Under the pieces are notes generated by a model. That model made no database searches and was not told the origin of the DNA. It was given only the letters and a program-made list of their open reading frames with translations. DNA of 53,798 nucleotides from a virus, in the IMG/VR virus record IMGVR_UViG_3300031576_001304, positions 1 to 53,798 of that record. The stretch is one strand, 5' to 3'. Below are positions 1-11,027 of this stretch, piece after piece; the stretch's first letter is position 1; each line of letters begins with the position of its first letter. Made by a program: the position numbers and the translations under genes.

Positions 1-1089
1 TCACTGCACCTTCTCTCCGGCTGTAACCGGATTTGTAACTACCGAAGGTTGCTGCCCCATGTACGATTCCATCTTCGCGGCGGCGCTTTGCAGATCTCGC
101 CGGCTCACGATGTCGTACCGCCTGTAGACGCTCTCGGTTCTGTGCCCAGTGATCGACATGGCCACGTTGCGTGGAATGCCTGCGCGCTCCATGTTCCTCA
201 CTGCGGATCGTCGGAGGTCGTGGAACAGCAAGCCAGGGACTCCCGCGGCGGCGCAGGCCTTACTCCAGCCCTTCAGGTGTGAGCCGATCTGCCGGCCCAT
301 GTAGCTGAAGACCCACGGGCACGCCGACCACTTCTGGTCTCTCAGAGACCTCTGCATCTCCAGCCACGCTTTCATCTCGCCGTAGACCGGGAGTGTTCGC
401 GGCCGTTTGTTCTTGGTCTGGGATCCGGCCAGGCGGATTTCGCCGGCGGCTAGGTCGACTTGGTCCCATCGGAGCGACCGTAGTTCGCCGAGTCGGTTCC
501 CAAGGTGGAATCCGACCACCAAGAGCGGCTTCAGGTGCTGCGGAAGTGCGTCCCGGAGGGCGAGGTATTGCTCGTGTTCCAGGAACCCTTGGCGCGCGTT
601 GTCTTCTGGTAGGTGGGGTATGTGTGGGACGCGGGAGACGAGCGGCGGGTCCTGAGCGGCCCCAAGATTGAATGCACGCCGCAGTGCCGCGAGCTCCCGG
701 TTGATCGTAGCGTTACTGGTGCCCGCCCGCCGCCGGGCGTCGATATACGCCTGAGCCTTCGTACGGCCGAAGTCTGCGGCTCGGATATTGCCGACAGCCG
801 GTAGCAGGTGTTTCGTCACCCGCCATTGCAGCGACTTCAGGCTCCTGCGCTCGTGGCGCTCGTAGTCCTCGATGAGCAAGTTGAGCAACTGGCGGACGGC
901 GACTCTCTCAATACCGCCAACGAATTGTCCGGTGACGATTTCGCCAAACCGACGCTTCAGCAGCCGCAAGGCTTCTTCGCGAGTGGATCCGCCGCTCTCG
1001 TGGAATGACCTCCCGTTTCGGTGGTACTTGATCCACCAAACAGATCCCCGACGGTAGAGGCAGCCAGTTCCGCTTGGGCGCCGCGTCAT
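1..1089 (-). CDS. int: Tyrosine recombinase (phage integrase)
   Basis: A 362-residue tyrosine recombinase expected to join attP to a chromosomal attB. The N-terminal part is an arm/core-binding region containing GSVWWIKYHRNG and a helical SAM-like segment (AINRELAALRRAF-type). The catalytic domain shows the R box (GNRLGELRSLRW), the HxxR box (FHDLRRSAVRN) and the GH...Y box (ITGHRTESVYRRYD), so the Arg-His-Arg-His-Tyr set appears intact. The reading frame is open upstream to 1473, but the ATG at 1089 overlaps the upstream HTH gene's stop (TAATG) and gives the usual family length, so I chose it. The stop codon is the first three bases of the window. As the last gene of the leftward operon, its attP should lie just outside. 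Confidence 0.96.
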   Translation of the reverse strand: MTRRPSGTGCLYRRGSVWWIKYHRNGRSFHESGGSTREEALRLLKRRFGEIVTGQFVGGIERVAVRQLLNLLIEDYERHERRSLKSLQWRVTKHLLPAVGNIRAADFGRTKAQAYIDARRRAGTSNATINRELAALRRAFNLGAAQDPPLVSRVPHIPHLPEDNARQGFLEHEQYLALRDALPQHLKPLLVVGFHLGNRLGELRSLRWDQVDLAAGEIRLAGSQTKNKRPRTLPVYGEMKAWLEMQRSLRDQKWSACPWVFSYMGRQIGSHLKGWSKACAAAGVPGLLFHDLRRSAVRNMERAGIPRNVAMSITGHRTESVYRRYDIVSRRDLQSAAAKMESYMGQQPSVVTNPVTAGEKVQ

Positions 1090-1367
1090 TACGCTGCCTT
1101 CGCCTCGTCGATGACCCGATCTATGTCTTTTGTGTCCAGAAAGACCCGACCATCGAGCCTGACCGCCGGCAGTTTGCCGGCAGCCACCATGTGGCGCACG
1201 GAATACTCTGACCGCGAGAGGTACTCCGCGGCCTGCGGGACGGTCATTAACCGTGGCTGTCCCGCATCCGGTCGCAGTCTCGCCAGGACTCGCTCGGCGA
1301 CGCGATCCGCCAGGTCGTCGAGCAGCCTGGTCAGGCTGGAATCGCCAAGCCTTGTGCCTTGTGACAC
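1089..1367 (-). CDS. Excisionase-like helix-turn-helix DNA-binding protein
   Basis: A 92-residue protein directly upstream of, and one base overlapping, the integrase. After a helical N-terminus (LLDDLADRVAERVLARL) comes a MerR/excisionase-type winged HTH: MTVPQAAEYLSRSEYSVRHM, then KLPAVRLDGRVF, where a short beta wing carries a basic residue. This is the pattern of the helix_turn_helix_17/Xis group. The position beside int suggests it is the recombination directionality factor (Xis) or a DNA-bending accessory protein; this role is inferred from context. It could also be a small transcription regulator. Confidence 0.8.
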   Translation of the reverse strand: MSQGTRLGDSSLTRLLDDLADRVAERVLARLRPDAGQPRLMTVPQAAEYLSRSEYSVRHMVAAGKLPAVRLDGRVFLDTKDIDRVIDEAKAA

Positions 1368-1606
1368 ATTTCCCCGCTTGCCGGTTTTCGCTTCTTCCCG
1401 TAGTAGCGGTGCTTGATACGCACGCTATCTTGACGGATGGCTCGCGCGATGTCATTGCGACCGTAGACCTCACACAGACGTGCGCACCGCTCGCGCTCTT
1501 CTACGACCTGAAGCACAACGGCCTCAGAAACCAGGGCTCCCAGAACATCAACCAGGAGACTCTTGTCGCCTGTCAAAACACGCGTCTTCAAACCTGCCTT
1601 CTTCAT
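1331..1606 (-). CDS. Small hypothetical protein with charged helix
   Basis: A 91-residue protein that I do not recognise by family. The ATG at 1606 (MKKAGLKTRVLTGDK) is preferred over an in-frame TTG at 1630. The centre is a charged helix (VVEERERCARLCEVYGRND) of a type often seen in short phage proteins, and the C-terminus is basic (RYYGKKRKPASGE). It overlaps the next gene's start by about 36 bases, which is long for this operon, and no clear Shine-Dalgarno sequence is seen. It lies between DnaB and the excisionase-like gene, so it is probably transcribed with them. Confidence 0.6.
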   Translation of the reverse strand: MKKAGLKTRVLTGDKSLLVDVLGALVSEAVVLQVVEERERCARLCEVYGRNDIARAIRQDSVRIKHRYYGKKRKPASGEMCHKAQGLAIPA

Positions 1607-5863: not shown

Positions 5864-6790
5864 CTACTCCTCGTCGAAGGTGATACAGCGGTTGGCGCCC
5901 TCGACCACCAGCGTGTCCAGGGTGGCCTTGATGTCCGACAGGCTGCTCTGGACTCCCGCGCGAAGGGATTCGTTGCTTCTGAGCTTGTCCGCATCGAGGC
6001 CTTCGAGCAGACTCACCGCTTGGTCAACGAGTCCTTTCAACTGCTGGTCGTCTGTGATGTTTCGGGCGTCGAAGGTTCGCAGGAATTCGGCCAAGTTTTC
6101 GACCGTGGTCTTGTGGAAGGTCTTTTTCTTGCCGTCCGCTCCCGGCTCCAGGCGCTCCACCATGTGGGTAACCAGCTCCTGCATCGTGGCGCGGAGAAGC
6201 TGCTGGATTTCGTTCGTTGCCTCGGCGACCTTCGCGGCCATCTTGTCGCGCTCGGCCTCGAAAAAAGCGGCGCTGATCTCGCGCAGTTTTCCGGGCGTAG
6301 TGAACGTCACGTACTGCCACTCCAGTGTGAACGCCGACCGGACCTTCCCCTCGGACGGATAGTCATCCGGGTTGTACAGATCCTGGAGCTTTGCGGCGGC
6401 TTCCTGCTTCCGCTGCTCGTACGCGGCCAGGAAGTCGTCCACGAGCTTCTGCCGGCTGACGTTGTAGTCGTGCAGGGTGTTCTCCACGTTTGGGACCAGC
6501 GTCATTGGCAGCAGGAAGATTCCCGACTTCATCATCGACGGCAAGCAGAGTTTGTACAGGTACGTGCGGATCTCTCCGTCGAGCTTGCGGATGGCCCTCA
6601 ACTCCGGCGAGTCGAGCAATTGCTTGGACGCCGCGATCCACGCCTTGTCCGCGTCCACATCGACCTGGGACGCCGAGATCTTGCGGCGATTTCCGATGGC
6701 TCCGAATGTGACCGTGAGGCTCACGGCGCGGTCAAAGATGCTGCCTTGGGGTTGGGTGTCCGGGGACACCGGTAGTGTCGTAGCTTCCAT
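5864..6790 (-). CDS. DUF3150-like protein
   Basis: A 308-residue acidic, mostly helical protein. It starts at ATG 6790 after AAGGAG. Segments such as FDRAVSLTVTFGAIGNRRKI near the N-terminus, a central LVDDFLAAYEQRKQEAAAKL and long C-terminal coiled helices resemble the DUF3150 group of phage/plasmid proteins, which commonly lie near MoxR/CobS-like AAA+ ATPases. No catalytic motif is visible. It is in one operon with the AAA+ gene at 9.6-11.0 kb, so a role as partner of that ATPase is a reasonable inference. Assignment to DUF3150 is from memory of the family and not certain. Confidence 0.72.
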   Translation of the reverse strand: MEATTLPVSPDTQPQGSIFDRAVSLTVTFGAIGNRRKISASQVDVDADKAWIAASKQLLDSPELRAIRKLDGEIRTYLYKLCLPSMMKSGIFLLPMTLVPNVENTLHDYNVSRQKLVDDFLAAYEQRKQEAAAKLQDLYNPDDYPSEGKVRSAFTLEWQYVTFTTPGKLREISAAFFEAERDKMAAKVAEATNEIQQLLRATMQELVTHMVERLEPGADGKKKTFHKTTVENLAEFLRTFDARNITDDQQLKGLVDQAVSLLEGLDADKLRSNESLRAGVQSSLSDIKATLDTLVVEGANRCITFDEE

Positions 6791-6816: not shown

Positions 6817-7035
6817 TTAGGAATTCGGAAGGCGCTCGTCCCGCGCGGCAATCTGCCGGCGGTAGGCTTCCGGGCTGAGGCCCAGTAATTCAGCAGCGAG
6901 CACGTTGGACAGCGCGCCCATGGCTCCCATGGAAAACTCCATGAGAGACTCGCTATCAACTTTGCGCCAGTAGGCGTACTCGGCGACGAGCAGGTCGCCA
7001 AGCTCGCGCCTGATCCGGGTCTCTTCGGCGCTCAT
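6817..7035 (-). CDS. Small hypothetical protein (72 aa)
   Basis: A 72-residue, mostly helical acidic protein (MSAEETRIRRELGDLL..., ending RQIAARDERLPNS). A hydrophobic, Met-rich middle (LMEFSMGAMGALSNVLAAEL) could be an amphipathic packing helix. ATG 7035 overlaps the stop of the upstream gene (ATGA) and has GGGAGA before it. Longer open frame upstream is a shadow. Family not recognised. Confidence 0.8.
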   Translation of the reverse strand: MSAEETRIRRELGDLLVAEYAYWRKVDSESLMEFSMGAMGALSNVLAAELLGLSPEAYRRQIAARDERLPNS

Positions 7036-7238
7036 TGATTCTCCCTCGCGTGCTCGTGCTGGTGGGTGTGGTGCAGCGCGTACGGCCGCTTCTGGCGCGT
7101 CGTCTGGCCGCCGGCCAGCCGTGCCATGAATTGCAAGAAGGCTTCCGCGTTCTGGTGGTTGGCGGCGCTGACCTTGCCGGTCGTCGTCTTGATTGTCCCG
7201 TCCTCGGTAATCTCGATCTCCAGGGTGTCGTTGTTCAT
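7032..7238 (-). CDS. DUF2997-like small protein
   Basis: A 68-residue protein. Its N-terminus (LEIEITEDGTIKTTTG) is a beta hairpin with the IEI-x-DGT pattern of DUF2997 proteins, followed by a helix (NAEAFLQFMARLAGG) and a His-rich tail (HHTHQHEHARENQ). DUF2997 proteins are found next to Ycf35/DUF1257 and AAA+ genes in cyanobacteria and phages, and both neighbours are present here (8.27-8.61 kb and 9.56-11.03 kb). ATG 7238 overlaps the upstream stop and follows GAGGGAGA. The His-rich tail might bind metal. Confidence 0.75.
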   Translation of the reverse strand: MNNDTLEIEITEDGTIKTTTGKVSAANHQNAEAFLQFMARLAGGQTTRQKRPYALHHTHQHEHARENQ

Positions 7239-8267: not shown

Positions 8268-8612
8268 TCAGAACCTCCTCTGCGCCATCATCTGGCGCTC
8301 ACTGACCTTCTTGACGTTCCAGCCAAACCGCTTCGATGCGGCCAGGACTATCTGCGTCGAATAGGCCCGCTTGACGGCGTTCACGTGCTCGGGGGCGGCC
8401 CCGTTCGGTCCGCCGATCACTACCGTGCCATCCGTTTTGACCCGGATCGAGACCCGGTTGCCGTAGTGATCCGCCACGAGCGACGCGTCGAACTGTCGCG
8501 CATACTCCGGAGTGCCGACCGCGAACCCCAGGTTTTCCAGCGCAGCCCGGAGCATGTCGAGGTTCGGGTTCTTCAGGTCGAGCGTCGTTTCAATCTTGTT
8601 CCAGCACGGCAT
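8268..8612 (-). CDS. Ycf35/DUF1257-like protein
   Basis: A 114-residue protein that fits the Ycf35 (DUF1257) layout: an N-terminal helix for 'individual residue pairing' (PNLDMLRAALENLGFAV), a central beta hairpin (VSIRVKTDGTVVIGGPNG) and a C-terminal YSTQIVLAASKRFGWNVKKV segment ending in a basic strand. Ycf35, DUF2997 and Ycf46-like AAA+ genes recur together in cyanobacteria and some phages; all three appear in this operon. Molecular function is unknown. Its start overlaps the methyltransferase-like gene's end by 23 bases. Confidence 0.75.
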   Translation of the reverse strand: MPCWNKIETTLDLKNPNLDMLRAALENLGFAVGTPEYARQFDASLVADHYGNRVSIRVKTDGTVVIGGPNGAAPEHVNAVKRAYSTQIVLAASKRFGWNVKKVSERQMMAQRRF

Positions 8613-9363
8613 CGAAGACCTCCTTGGGAAATGAAAAACTCATCCAAGGGGCGTACAGCGCCCCGTTGATCTTGCAGATACTCAACACAAGCGGGTCTAT
8701 GTCCTGACCGTGCAGCCTCAGGCTGTAGTTGCTCGCGTGGAGCAACATCCGACCCGTGCCGATGCACGGATCACAGACCGTCTTCGCGCGGTGGTCGCCG
8801 TCGCCGAACGTCATCTGAACCATGCACTCGACGACGTTGTGGGGCGTTGGGTAGAACCCCGTGTTGTTCCACTTGTTCGACTTACGCTCCGAGAGCATGG
8901 TTCCAAGGTGGTCGTAGGGTGCGACGACGACCGGGCCGACGTTGAACTGCCGGTAGAGCTTCTCTTCGGTGTCATGGTCCATTCCGCGGTCCTCGTCGGA
9001 TACGGCCAGCGCGAAGGCCAACCAATCGACCAGACGGCGGAAACTCTCGAACGAGCCGTAGCGGTGCTCGATGATCGAGACCGCGCCATCGAGTTGCTTC
9101 ATGGCCTCGTGGTCGGGGCCGTCGAGGAACCGAATCTGCGGGATTGGCTCGTCGAGCAGACGGCCGGCTTCGCGTGTACGGAAGTAGTAACCCCACCTGT
9201 CCGGCACGTCCGGGTGCCGAGCGTGAATCTCAATCACGTACCAGAGCAACCACCCGCGGTAACGCCACGGCGCGACGGCGTCACCCAGGCGCGGGAGCCG
9301 GCCTGTTTGGGTGGTGAAGGCGATCAGGTCTGGTGTGGGTGGGGGCGCGGGAAGCGCGCTCAC
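8590..9363 (-). CDS. N6-adenine methyltransferase-like protein lacking the catalytic motif
   Basis: A 257-residue protein. Residues about 165-240 match the SAM-binding half of type I/HsdM-like N6-MTases: GFYPTPHNVVECMVQM, motif I VCDPCIGTGRMLL, and LHGQDIDPLVLSICKIN. The protein ends only about 20 residues later, at FPKEVFDAVLEQD, so the NPPY/NPPF catalytic motif IV expected next is absent. The N-terminal 160 residues are helical and unassigned. The GTG start at 9363 overlaps the upstream stop (GTGA). It may bind SAM or DNA without methylating, or work as a subunit of the neighbouring AAA+ complex. Confidence 0.82.
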   Translation of the reverse strand: MSALPAPPPTPDLIAFTTQTGRLPRLGDAVAPWRYRGWLLWYVIEIHARHPDVPDRWGYYFRTREAGRLLDEPIPQIRFLDGPDHEAMKQLDGAVSIIEHRYGSFESFRRLVDWLAFALAVSDEDRGMDHDTEEKLYRQFNVGPVVVAPYDHLGTMLSERKSNKWNNTGFYPTPHNVVECMVQMTFGDGDHRAKTVCDPCIGTGRMLLHASNYSLRLHGQDIDPLVLSICKINGALYAPWMSFSFPKEVFDAVLEQD

Positions 9364-9563: not shown

Positions 9564-11027
9564 TCAATCCTCCACGCTGATCGTTCTCGCGGTCGTTGAG
9601 ACGCCCGCGGTCTTGTCGTACCGGTAGACTCCCGGATTACTTGCGCTGATGAAGCGCCCGTTCGCCTGCTGGCGCAGCCGGTCGATCTGATCGGCTGCGC
9701 TCCTGGACACCGGGACGATGTAGGTTGCCGCTTCCTGCAAACTGGACTTGAGCCGGTACGCCAGGTCACAGCACTGCCGGATCTCCGCGCCGGTCCATCC
9801 CTCGTCGTTGGGGACCTCGTCGCCGCGGCCGAACTTCTTGCAGTAGATCCGCCAGATCGACTCGCGCTCTTCGGCGGTCGGAAGGTCGAAGAAGAACGTC
9901 CCGAACGTAAAGCGCCTTCTCAGTTCCGGCGGAAGGACGCCAATCGAGTTACACGTCGCGATGAACAGCGACCGCCCCTGACTGACGGCCTGAACGACCT
10001 TCAAGCTCTGCCTGAGACGCGCTCCGGACTCGCCGACCAGGGAGCCCTTCATCCCGGCCAGATCGAAGGCAATCGTCGGAATGCCGGCCGTGTTCCCAGT
10101 GGCTTTCGCGATGGCCGATTTCGCGGCTCCGGGCGGGCCTATGAAGATGACGCCCTTCGCTTCGTTGTCCTGCATCCACGAGAGCAGCGTCCCGGTCATT
10201 TCAGTTGAGACGCCGGATAGGTCAGTACCCGTGCCGGCGAACTGCTTCTCGATCTCATCGAGGAAAACCACGGCCCGCGGCGGCTCCGCGCCGTTCAAGA
10301 TGCGGCCCATGAACGTCTTCGCGTTCTCGCAGCCTCCGATTTGATCGAACGTCTCACCGCCGCGCCAGACCGAGAGGCCAGGAGTCGCCTCGATCATCTT
10401 CCGCTTGCGCTCCCACAGGGCGTCGAAGTCCAGCCCGTCGCGCGTGATCGACATTGCCGCGACCTGCTCGGCCGGGAAAGCTGCGAGACCACAGAGCGCA
10501 TCAACGGCCCGCACCGTTACGTCGTCGGCTGGCGGCTTCAAGTCGGCCGCTTTATACGTTTCCTTGACTATCACGACCAATTCATCGTTCGTCGGAAGCG
10601 GTTCGTCGAGCAGAAGCACGTCCTGGGCGATTTCTGCCGGGAGCGTCAGATCGGGCGCGAGTAGGACCAGGGTCCGCATGTTCTGCTTGAACTCGTCGCG
10701 GAGATTCCAGACGGCCTGGGATACGCCTTGCTCTCCGACCACGCGGTGAATGTTCTCGAAGAACACCAGCGCCTTTCCGGGGAGCTGCCCGCAGAGCCCG
10801 AGTGCCTCGACCGGGTTCGTGGTCGTCGTCGGATCGACGTTGAGGTTGGAGACCGCCTGTTGTCCGGCCGTGTTCATCCCGGCCAATCCGGTGACGATGT
10901 TCCAGCGCAGCATGGGCGTACCGTTGAAGCTCTTGGCGATGGTTGCGATGGTCGCCGCGGGATCGGCTGTGCGCACCGCGATCAGTGGAGTGCTCACCCG
11001 GCGGGCGGCTTTGAATTGTTGAATCAT
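9564..11027 (-). CDS. Ycf46-like AAA+ ATPase with permuted Walker motifs
   Basis: A 487-residue ATPase. The N-terminal 210 residues match the degenerate domain of Ycf46 proteins (KALVFFENIHRVV; APDLTLPAEIAQDV; LDEPLP). The second domain begins FDQIGGCENAK. Unlike ordinary AAA+ proteins, the Walker B block (AVVFLDEIEKQF, residues 252-263, through LLSWMQD at 281-287) comes before Walker A (IGPPGAAKS, 296-304). Then follow the VGESGARLRQ helix (331-340) and, directly, sensor 1 (LFIATCNS, 354-361) and the Arg finger (PPELRRRF). In canonical Ycf46 the order is Walker A, GES, Walker B, SWMQ, sensor 1. All motifs look intact, so an active but rearranged ATPase is likely. GGAGG precedes ATG 11027. 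Confidence 0.9.
   Translation of the reverse strand: MIQQFKAARRVSTPLIAVRTADPAATIATIAKSFNGTPMLRWNIVTGLAGMNTAGQQAVSNLNVDPTTTTNPVEALGLCGQLPGKALVFFENIHRVVGEQGVSQAVWNLRDEFKQNMRTLVLLAPDLTLPAEIAQDVLLLDEPLPTNDELVVIVKETYKAADLKPPADDVTVRAVDALCGLAAFPAEQVAAMSITRDGLDFDALWERKRKMIEATPGLSVWRGGETFDQIGGCENAKTFMGRILNGAEPPRAVVFLDEIEKQFAGTGTDLSGVSTEMTGTLLSWMQDNEAKGVIFIGPPGAAKSAIAKATGNTAGIPTIAFDLAGMKGSLVGESGARLRQSLKVVQAVSQGRSLFIATCNSIGVLPPELRRRFTFGTFFFDLPTAEERESIWRIYCKKFGRGDEVPNDEGWTGAEIRQCCDLAYRLKSSLQEAATYIVPVSRSAADQIDRLRQQANGRFISASNPGVYRYDKTAGVSTTARTISVED

Follow-up and report, generated by a model that had tools for sequence, protein, structure and literature searches.

AAA+ modules are among the commonest motor domains of life, and profiles, annotation and models of force transmission assume a fixed order of their motifs. 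This canonical order, with Walker A before Walker B, is found in the tandem AAA+ proteins p97/CDC48, NVL and Rix7, in Ycf46-type ATPases of Planctomycetes and their phages (Blastopirellula marina, locus L176; locus L180), and in the AAA-ATPases of the phages Rhizobium L338C/RHph_I4, Mycobacterium corndog and Aeromonas HJ05. Natural reordering of motifs with retention of function is known from the circularly permuted P-loop GTPases YjeQ/RsgA and YlqF, in which G4 lies ahead of G1. Those proteins are of the GTPase class; the protein described here belongs to the AAA+ ATPases, and in its chain of two domains it is Walker B that precedes Walker A. In the open-access literature that was searched, natural permutation of an AAA+ core was not described, and the nearest reports concerned permuted methylases or GTPases. 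The sequence-only reading of this DNA, which preceded our analysis, had likewise known of no permuted AAA+ module.

The protein is encoded in a virus record of 53,798 bases, the whole of which is referred to below as the window (Table 1). A tyrosine integrase gene is present at the window edge (1-1473, minus strand), so the phage is probably temperate. The window protein shares its tandem AAA+ layout with p97/CDC48, NVL and Rix7, and its Walker A/pore-loop block matches the AAA family; those proteins differ in having canonical order and no DUF1257 cassette. Likeness was also seen to the canonical Ycf46-type ATPases of Planctomycetes and their phages. They have in common with the permuted form the degenerate N-domain, the block sequences, the DUF1257/DUF2997/DUF3150 gene cassette and the C-terminal signatures WTGAEI..CC, IVPV and LR..A.GRCLSA..GIY. 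The Planctomycetes proteins (L156-L179) show about 32% identity to the permuted proteins along the entire chain, but differ in the order of Walker A and Walker B and in an arginine-finger loop that is approximately one residue longer. The Rhizobium, Mycobacterium and Aeromonas phage ATPases are homologous across both domains; they differ in canonical order and have 22-30% identity. The Rhizobium phage locus contains DUF1257 and DUF2997 genes, as do most permuted loci.

Table 1. Coordinates of the permuted ATPase gene, its parts and the accompanying genes in the window
Feature	Position	Strand	Basis
Permuted tandem AAA+ ATPase (Ycf46-like), 487 aa, ATG start	9564..11027	(-)	
Residues 1-225: degenerate first AAA+-like domain, canonical order	10353..11027	(-)	secondary structure and Foldseek
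Residues 226-251: GGCEN linker, α0, PPR	10275..10352	(-)	
Block B, residues 252-290: β3-α3, Walker B VVFLDEIEK (D257, E258)	10158..10274	(-)	
Block A, residues 291-352: β1-α1-β2-α2, Walker A GPPGAAKS 297-304, pore-loop region KGSLVGES	9972..10157	(-)	
Block C, residues 353-487: β4 with sensor 1 ATCN 357-360, arginine fingers R371/R372, β5, helical lid, tail	9567..9971	(-)	
N6-methyltransferase-like protein, SAM-binding part only, next main gene downstream	8590..9363	(-)	PF02384, E 7.2e-8
DUF1257 (Ycf35)-like protein	8268..8612	(-)	family c6, E 7.3e-28
DUF2997-like small protein	7032..7238	(-)	family c7, E 5.1e-33
DUF3150-like protein	5864..6790	(-)	PF11348, E 3.7e-4, under curated cut-off; family c0, E 1.5e-126

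The window protein is a Ycf46-type tandem ATPase with a degenerate N-terminal AAA+-like domain and a second domain predicted to be active. Its best BFVD matches are named Ycf46. The N-domain has no P-loop and carries ALVFFENIHR at the Walker B position; its secondary-structure elements (E15-19, H23-32, E39-43, E87-91, H100-116, E119-124, E138-141) follow the canonical order, which identifies the chain as a tandem AAA+ protein whose first domain is degenerate. The counterpart of the linker in canonical relatives runs into β1. Pfam AAA (PF00004) matched the window protein with an E-value of 7.3e-14 in two separate stretches, the best of which covered only 293-347; a split match is as expected from a reordered domain. 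Membership of the IetA anti-phage ATPases was rejected, since the matches were weak and partial: PADLOC gave 29 bits over 75 residues and the NCBIfam score was 23.8 bits against a cut-off of 510.

The order of the core blocks was analyzed with two profiles. One was made from 11 canonical Planctomycetes proteins, and the second consisted of the same columns with two core blocks exchanged. The canonical profile matched the window protein in four out-of-order pieces: residues 27-246 to model positions 32-245 (the N-domain, 86.9 bits), 252-290 to 315-356 (25.8 bits), 288-349 to 252-313 (52.5 bits) and 354-483 to 359-490 (126.1 bits). The exchanged profile gave a single match over residues 27-483 with 341.2 bits. 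Of 179 proteins compared in this way, 31 scored better with the native profile and 148 with the exchanged one, the latter group gaining 190 bits on average. The Walker B strand-helix unit (β3-α3) is thus ahead of the P-loop and each block aligns with its canonical counterpart, as the sequence-only reading had claimed; the motif positions given there proved right within one residue (AVVFLDE 252-258, LLSWMQD ending at 287, IGPPGAAKS 296-304, VGESGARLRQ 331-340, ATCN 357-360). An acidic pair is not conserved after residue 304: the pattern hhxD(D/E) was found there in only 7 of 160 permuted homologues, always as (A/T)(V/I)(A/S)DD.

The breakpoints are located at strand starts. Marked by slashes, they read RPR/GVLLLG...DAMAP/AILFLDE...LNDHTSD/VFVVATCN in a canonical sequence and PPR/AVVFLDE...SWMQDNEA/KGVIFIGPPG...VSQGR/SLFIATCN in the window protein. 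Together with the block matches, this demonstrates that two adjacent internal segments were exchanged; the domain as a whole is not circularly permuted. The window protein departs from AAA+ proteins in motif order, and agrees with them in possessing both Walker motifs, sensor 1 and an arginine finger.

Conservation of the active site was examined in 160 aligned permuted sequences. E258, G297, K303, G332, N360 and R372 are invariant, and the Walker A serine position is S or T in all 160. Position 257 is D in 158 sequences and E in two; R371 is R in 143. The motifs are therefore intact, as had been noted from the window alone, with DE, K, S/T and N all present in 158 of the 160. R371 and R372 align with the arginine fingers of p97. 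The near-invariance of Walker A, Walker B, sensor 1 and the arginine finger indicates that selection maintains an ATPase, from which hydrolysis itself may be inferred.

One could nevertheless imagine that the permuted family binds ATP but works as a slow switch, or has a structural role without activity, with hydrolysis uncoupled from motion. Three core connections are altered, the arginine-finger loop is shortened (RRRF versus RRGRF in canonical relatives), and the first AAA+ domain is degenerate already. A dead subunit would, however, be expected to lose E258, N360 and R372, which are invariant in the 160 sequences; in the 95-sequence set, overall identity with the window protein is roughly 39-66%. 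We regard this explanation as improbable and favor a working ATPase.

Intervening elements were observed within the ATPase genes. In one permuted member, on a 164-kb viral contig, a mini-intein (L011:5992-7929; Pfam Intein_splicing E 5.3e-6, under the curated cut-off) splits sensor 1 as ATC/N; sites of this kind are commonly occupied by inteins in active ATPases. Three canonical-order phage relatives contain group I introns (L246:4939-5726, L252:4939-5721 and L258:4954-5741; Rfam RF00028, 69-72 bits) at the Walker B aspartate (CVLFVD/), and that of L246 carries an HNH-like ORF.

The fold was predicted with AlphaFold2 from 95 permuted sequences (mean pLDDT 93.9, pTM 0.86). The core blocks were mostly at pLDDT 90-97, with a weaker loop at 261-270 (79), and the elements followed in the order E252-256, H273-287, E291-296, H303-314, E318-321, H331-349, E353-359 and E376-379. 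A canonical relative modelled from 11 sequences for comparison reached a pLDDT of only 65.5. Foldseek with the whole chain matched the double AAA+ PDB proteins Rix7, NVL and p97 with probability 1.0, and phage models named Ycf46 with TM up to 0.70. The best matches had rmsd of about 8-18, and such superposition is of limited use because the method follows chain order and the orientation of the two domains differs.

Covariation was analyzed in 160 permuted sequences (about 123 effective). The strongest DCA signals between strands (mean of the top five) were those of β3-β4, β1-β5 and β1-β4, all of them neighbors in the 5-1-4-3-2 sheet. Against random windows, p was about 0.01-0.03 for β3-β4, 0.01-0.03 for α3-α2 and 0.005-0.02 for the former α2/β3 junction (R251-Q350, A252-S349), whose residues are now approximately 98 positions apart; these values are uncorrected and the windows were picked with the model in mind, so that covariation should be taken as support and not as proof. 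In the same 160 sequences β1-β4 and β2-β3 did not differ significantly from random windows, non-neighboring strand pairs were not elevated, and the former α3/β4 and linker/β1 junctions gave no significant covariation. The predicted model and the β3-β4 signal both support the suggestion of the sequence-only reading that strand 3 keeps its canonical place in the sheet, beside β4.

It might be supposed instead that the strands are exchanged in space as well, with the Walker B strand at the β1 site, the P-loop strand elsewhere and a new sheet order, in which case the loop connections would remain canonical. The β3-β4 and β1-β5 covariation is that of the 5-1-4-3-2 order and does not include β3-β5, and the intact catalytic motifs need canonical geometry, which makes this arrangement very improbable. 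A sheet of canonical strand order with altered connections is the preferred description.

The first search found ten viral loci at 39-60% identity, all in permuted order. The permuted order was also present in gp103 of the isolated Acidobacteria phage Tunturi_3 (PP885686; 43% identity over 97%), described in PMC11924767. In alignment searches, viral contigs yielded 217 relatives and bacterial genomes 190; 80 of each were retained. Permuted loci L100-L155 belong to Acidobacteria, Armatimonadota, Nitrospira and a few other phyla, and the family as a whole is carried by phages from soil and water as well as by some bacteria. Canonical phage relatives were recovered by further search. The final set comprised 168 distinct sequences in permuted and 108 in canonical order, 276 in all. 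Among these 276 no duplicated Walker A or Walker B block and no intermediate between the two orders was found; the sole near-tie was L011, which its intein splits. The window is a virus record obtained from a metagenome, yet faulty assembly, a frameshift or a chance resemblance of motifs can be practically dismissed as the source of the order: the gene is one open frame, the same order recurs in the 168 distinct sequences, in independent records from many metagenomes, in an isolated phage and in a finished bacterial chromosome, and a chance match is ruled out by the one-piece match to the exchanged profile.

The finished chromosome is that of Nitrospira moscoviensis. It holds two permuted copies and one distant canonical homologue, so both orders coexist within one genome. 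Two near-duplicate islands with the permuted ATPase cassette were seen at 1,447,501-1,467,000 and 2,946,501-2,966,000 (L451, L452). They also hold genes for ribonucleotide reductase, a DNA clamp, a CHC2 primase-like protein and a helicase, and look like an integrated replicon.

A tree was built from the colinear parts only, namely the N-domain and the stretch from sensor 1 to the C-terminal end (92 rows of 383 columns). All 55 permuted rows were united by a branch with an SH-aLRT of 100, and the clade they form is surrounded by canonical rows, close to the group of Planctomycetes and phages. The simplest reading of a single permuted clade is one origin, so the change of order would be a single ancient event, fixed throughout a large family. 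Either one transposition or a duplication with two deletions could have produced it, and the data favor neither route.

Overall, we put at about 0.8 the probability that the window protein is a working Ycf46-type tandem AAA+ ATPase whose active core was changed by one ancient exchange of two segments. The exchange would have converted (β1-α1-β2-α2)(β3-α3) into (β3-α3)(β1-α1-β2-α2), with every strand staying in its 5-1-4-3-2 position. Rewiring would then be limited to three loops, from the linker to β3, from α3 to β1 and from α2 to β4. Judging from known AAA+ topology, each of these should be located where a strand begins, at the edge of the sheet opposite the nucleotide. The canonical crossovers 2 to 3 and 3 to 4 would be replaced by 2 to 4 and 3 to 1. 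Since the new crossovers keep the canonical direction along the sheet, the right-handedness and helix face of each can be retained. The pore-loop region would still be found between β2 and α2, within a moved block. With strand positions kept, both Walker motifs, sensor 1 and the arginine fingers would still meet at ATP. The window protein is probably a hexameric protein remodeller, in which hexamer formation and ATPase activity are inferred. The exchange joins α3 to the P-loop strand and α2, the pore-loop helix, to the sensor 1 strand. That this alters transmission from hydrolysis to the pore, making the exchange non-neutral, seems rather unlikely.

The gene neighborhood bears on the function. 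The DUF1257, DUF2997 and DUF3150 genes lie downstream of the ATPase; the window copies are divergent members, with the N6-methyltransferase-like gene in between. The latter contains the SAM-binding DPCIGTGRML and ends before any NPPY/F catalytic motif. Compared with the DUF1257 and DUF2997 sets, families c6 and c7 gave hhalign probabilities of 96 and 94, respectively. Among permuted loci with enough flank, DUF3150 was present in 62 of 65, DUF2997 in 61 and DUF1257 in 61; the counts for canonical loci were 19, 21 and 20 of 24. A small protein without a Pfam match (family c3, e.g. L176:8180-8434) also goes with the cassette; roughly half of the permuted loci and most of the canonical ones have it. 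As the cassette does not differ between the two orders, the permuted enzyme most likely shares the remodelling job of its canonical relatives, and it would act on the DUF1257, DUF2997 and DUF3150 partners.

No open-access literature on the function of the DUF1257/DUF2997/DUF3150 set was found. In cyanobacteria DUF2997 and Ycf35 flank ferredoxin 7 (PMC4284462); this Synechocystis cluster has the same two partner families adjacent, with no permuted ATPase described. The window cassette adjoins a DnaB helicase, an exonuclease-like protein and an AAA_24 protein related to Sak4, and that of N. moscoviensis adjoins the DNA clamp, CHC2 primase-like and ribonucleotide reductase genes. From these replication-type neighbors we tentatively propose that the permuted ATPase may act during phage DNA replication, on a replication protein complex.

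A large natural clade with exchanged order indicates that AAA+ topology is changeable while the active site is preserved: a common motor domain has been rewired in nature and is apparently still used. Colinear profile searches would overlook or fragment such genuine AAA+ proteins. The canonical sister proteins in the same cassette provide a matched comparison set, and the permuted/canonical pair allows a direct test of which covalent links in the core the motor needs. Should the exchange be non-neutral after all, the family would represent an AAA+ motor whose mechanics are distinct and have become fixed in a single large clade carried by phages.
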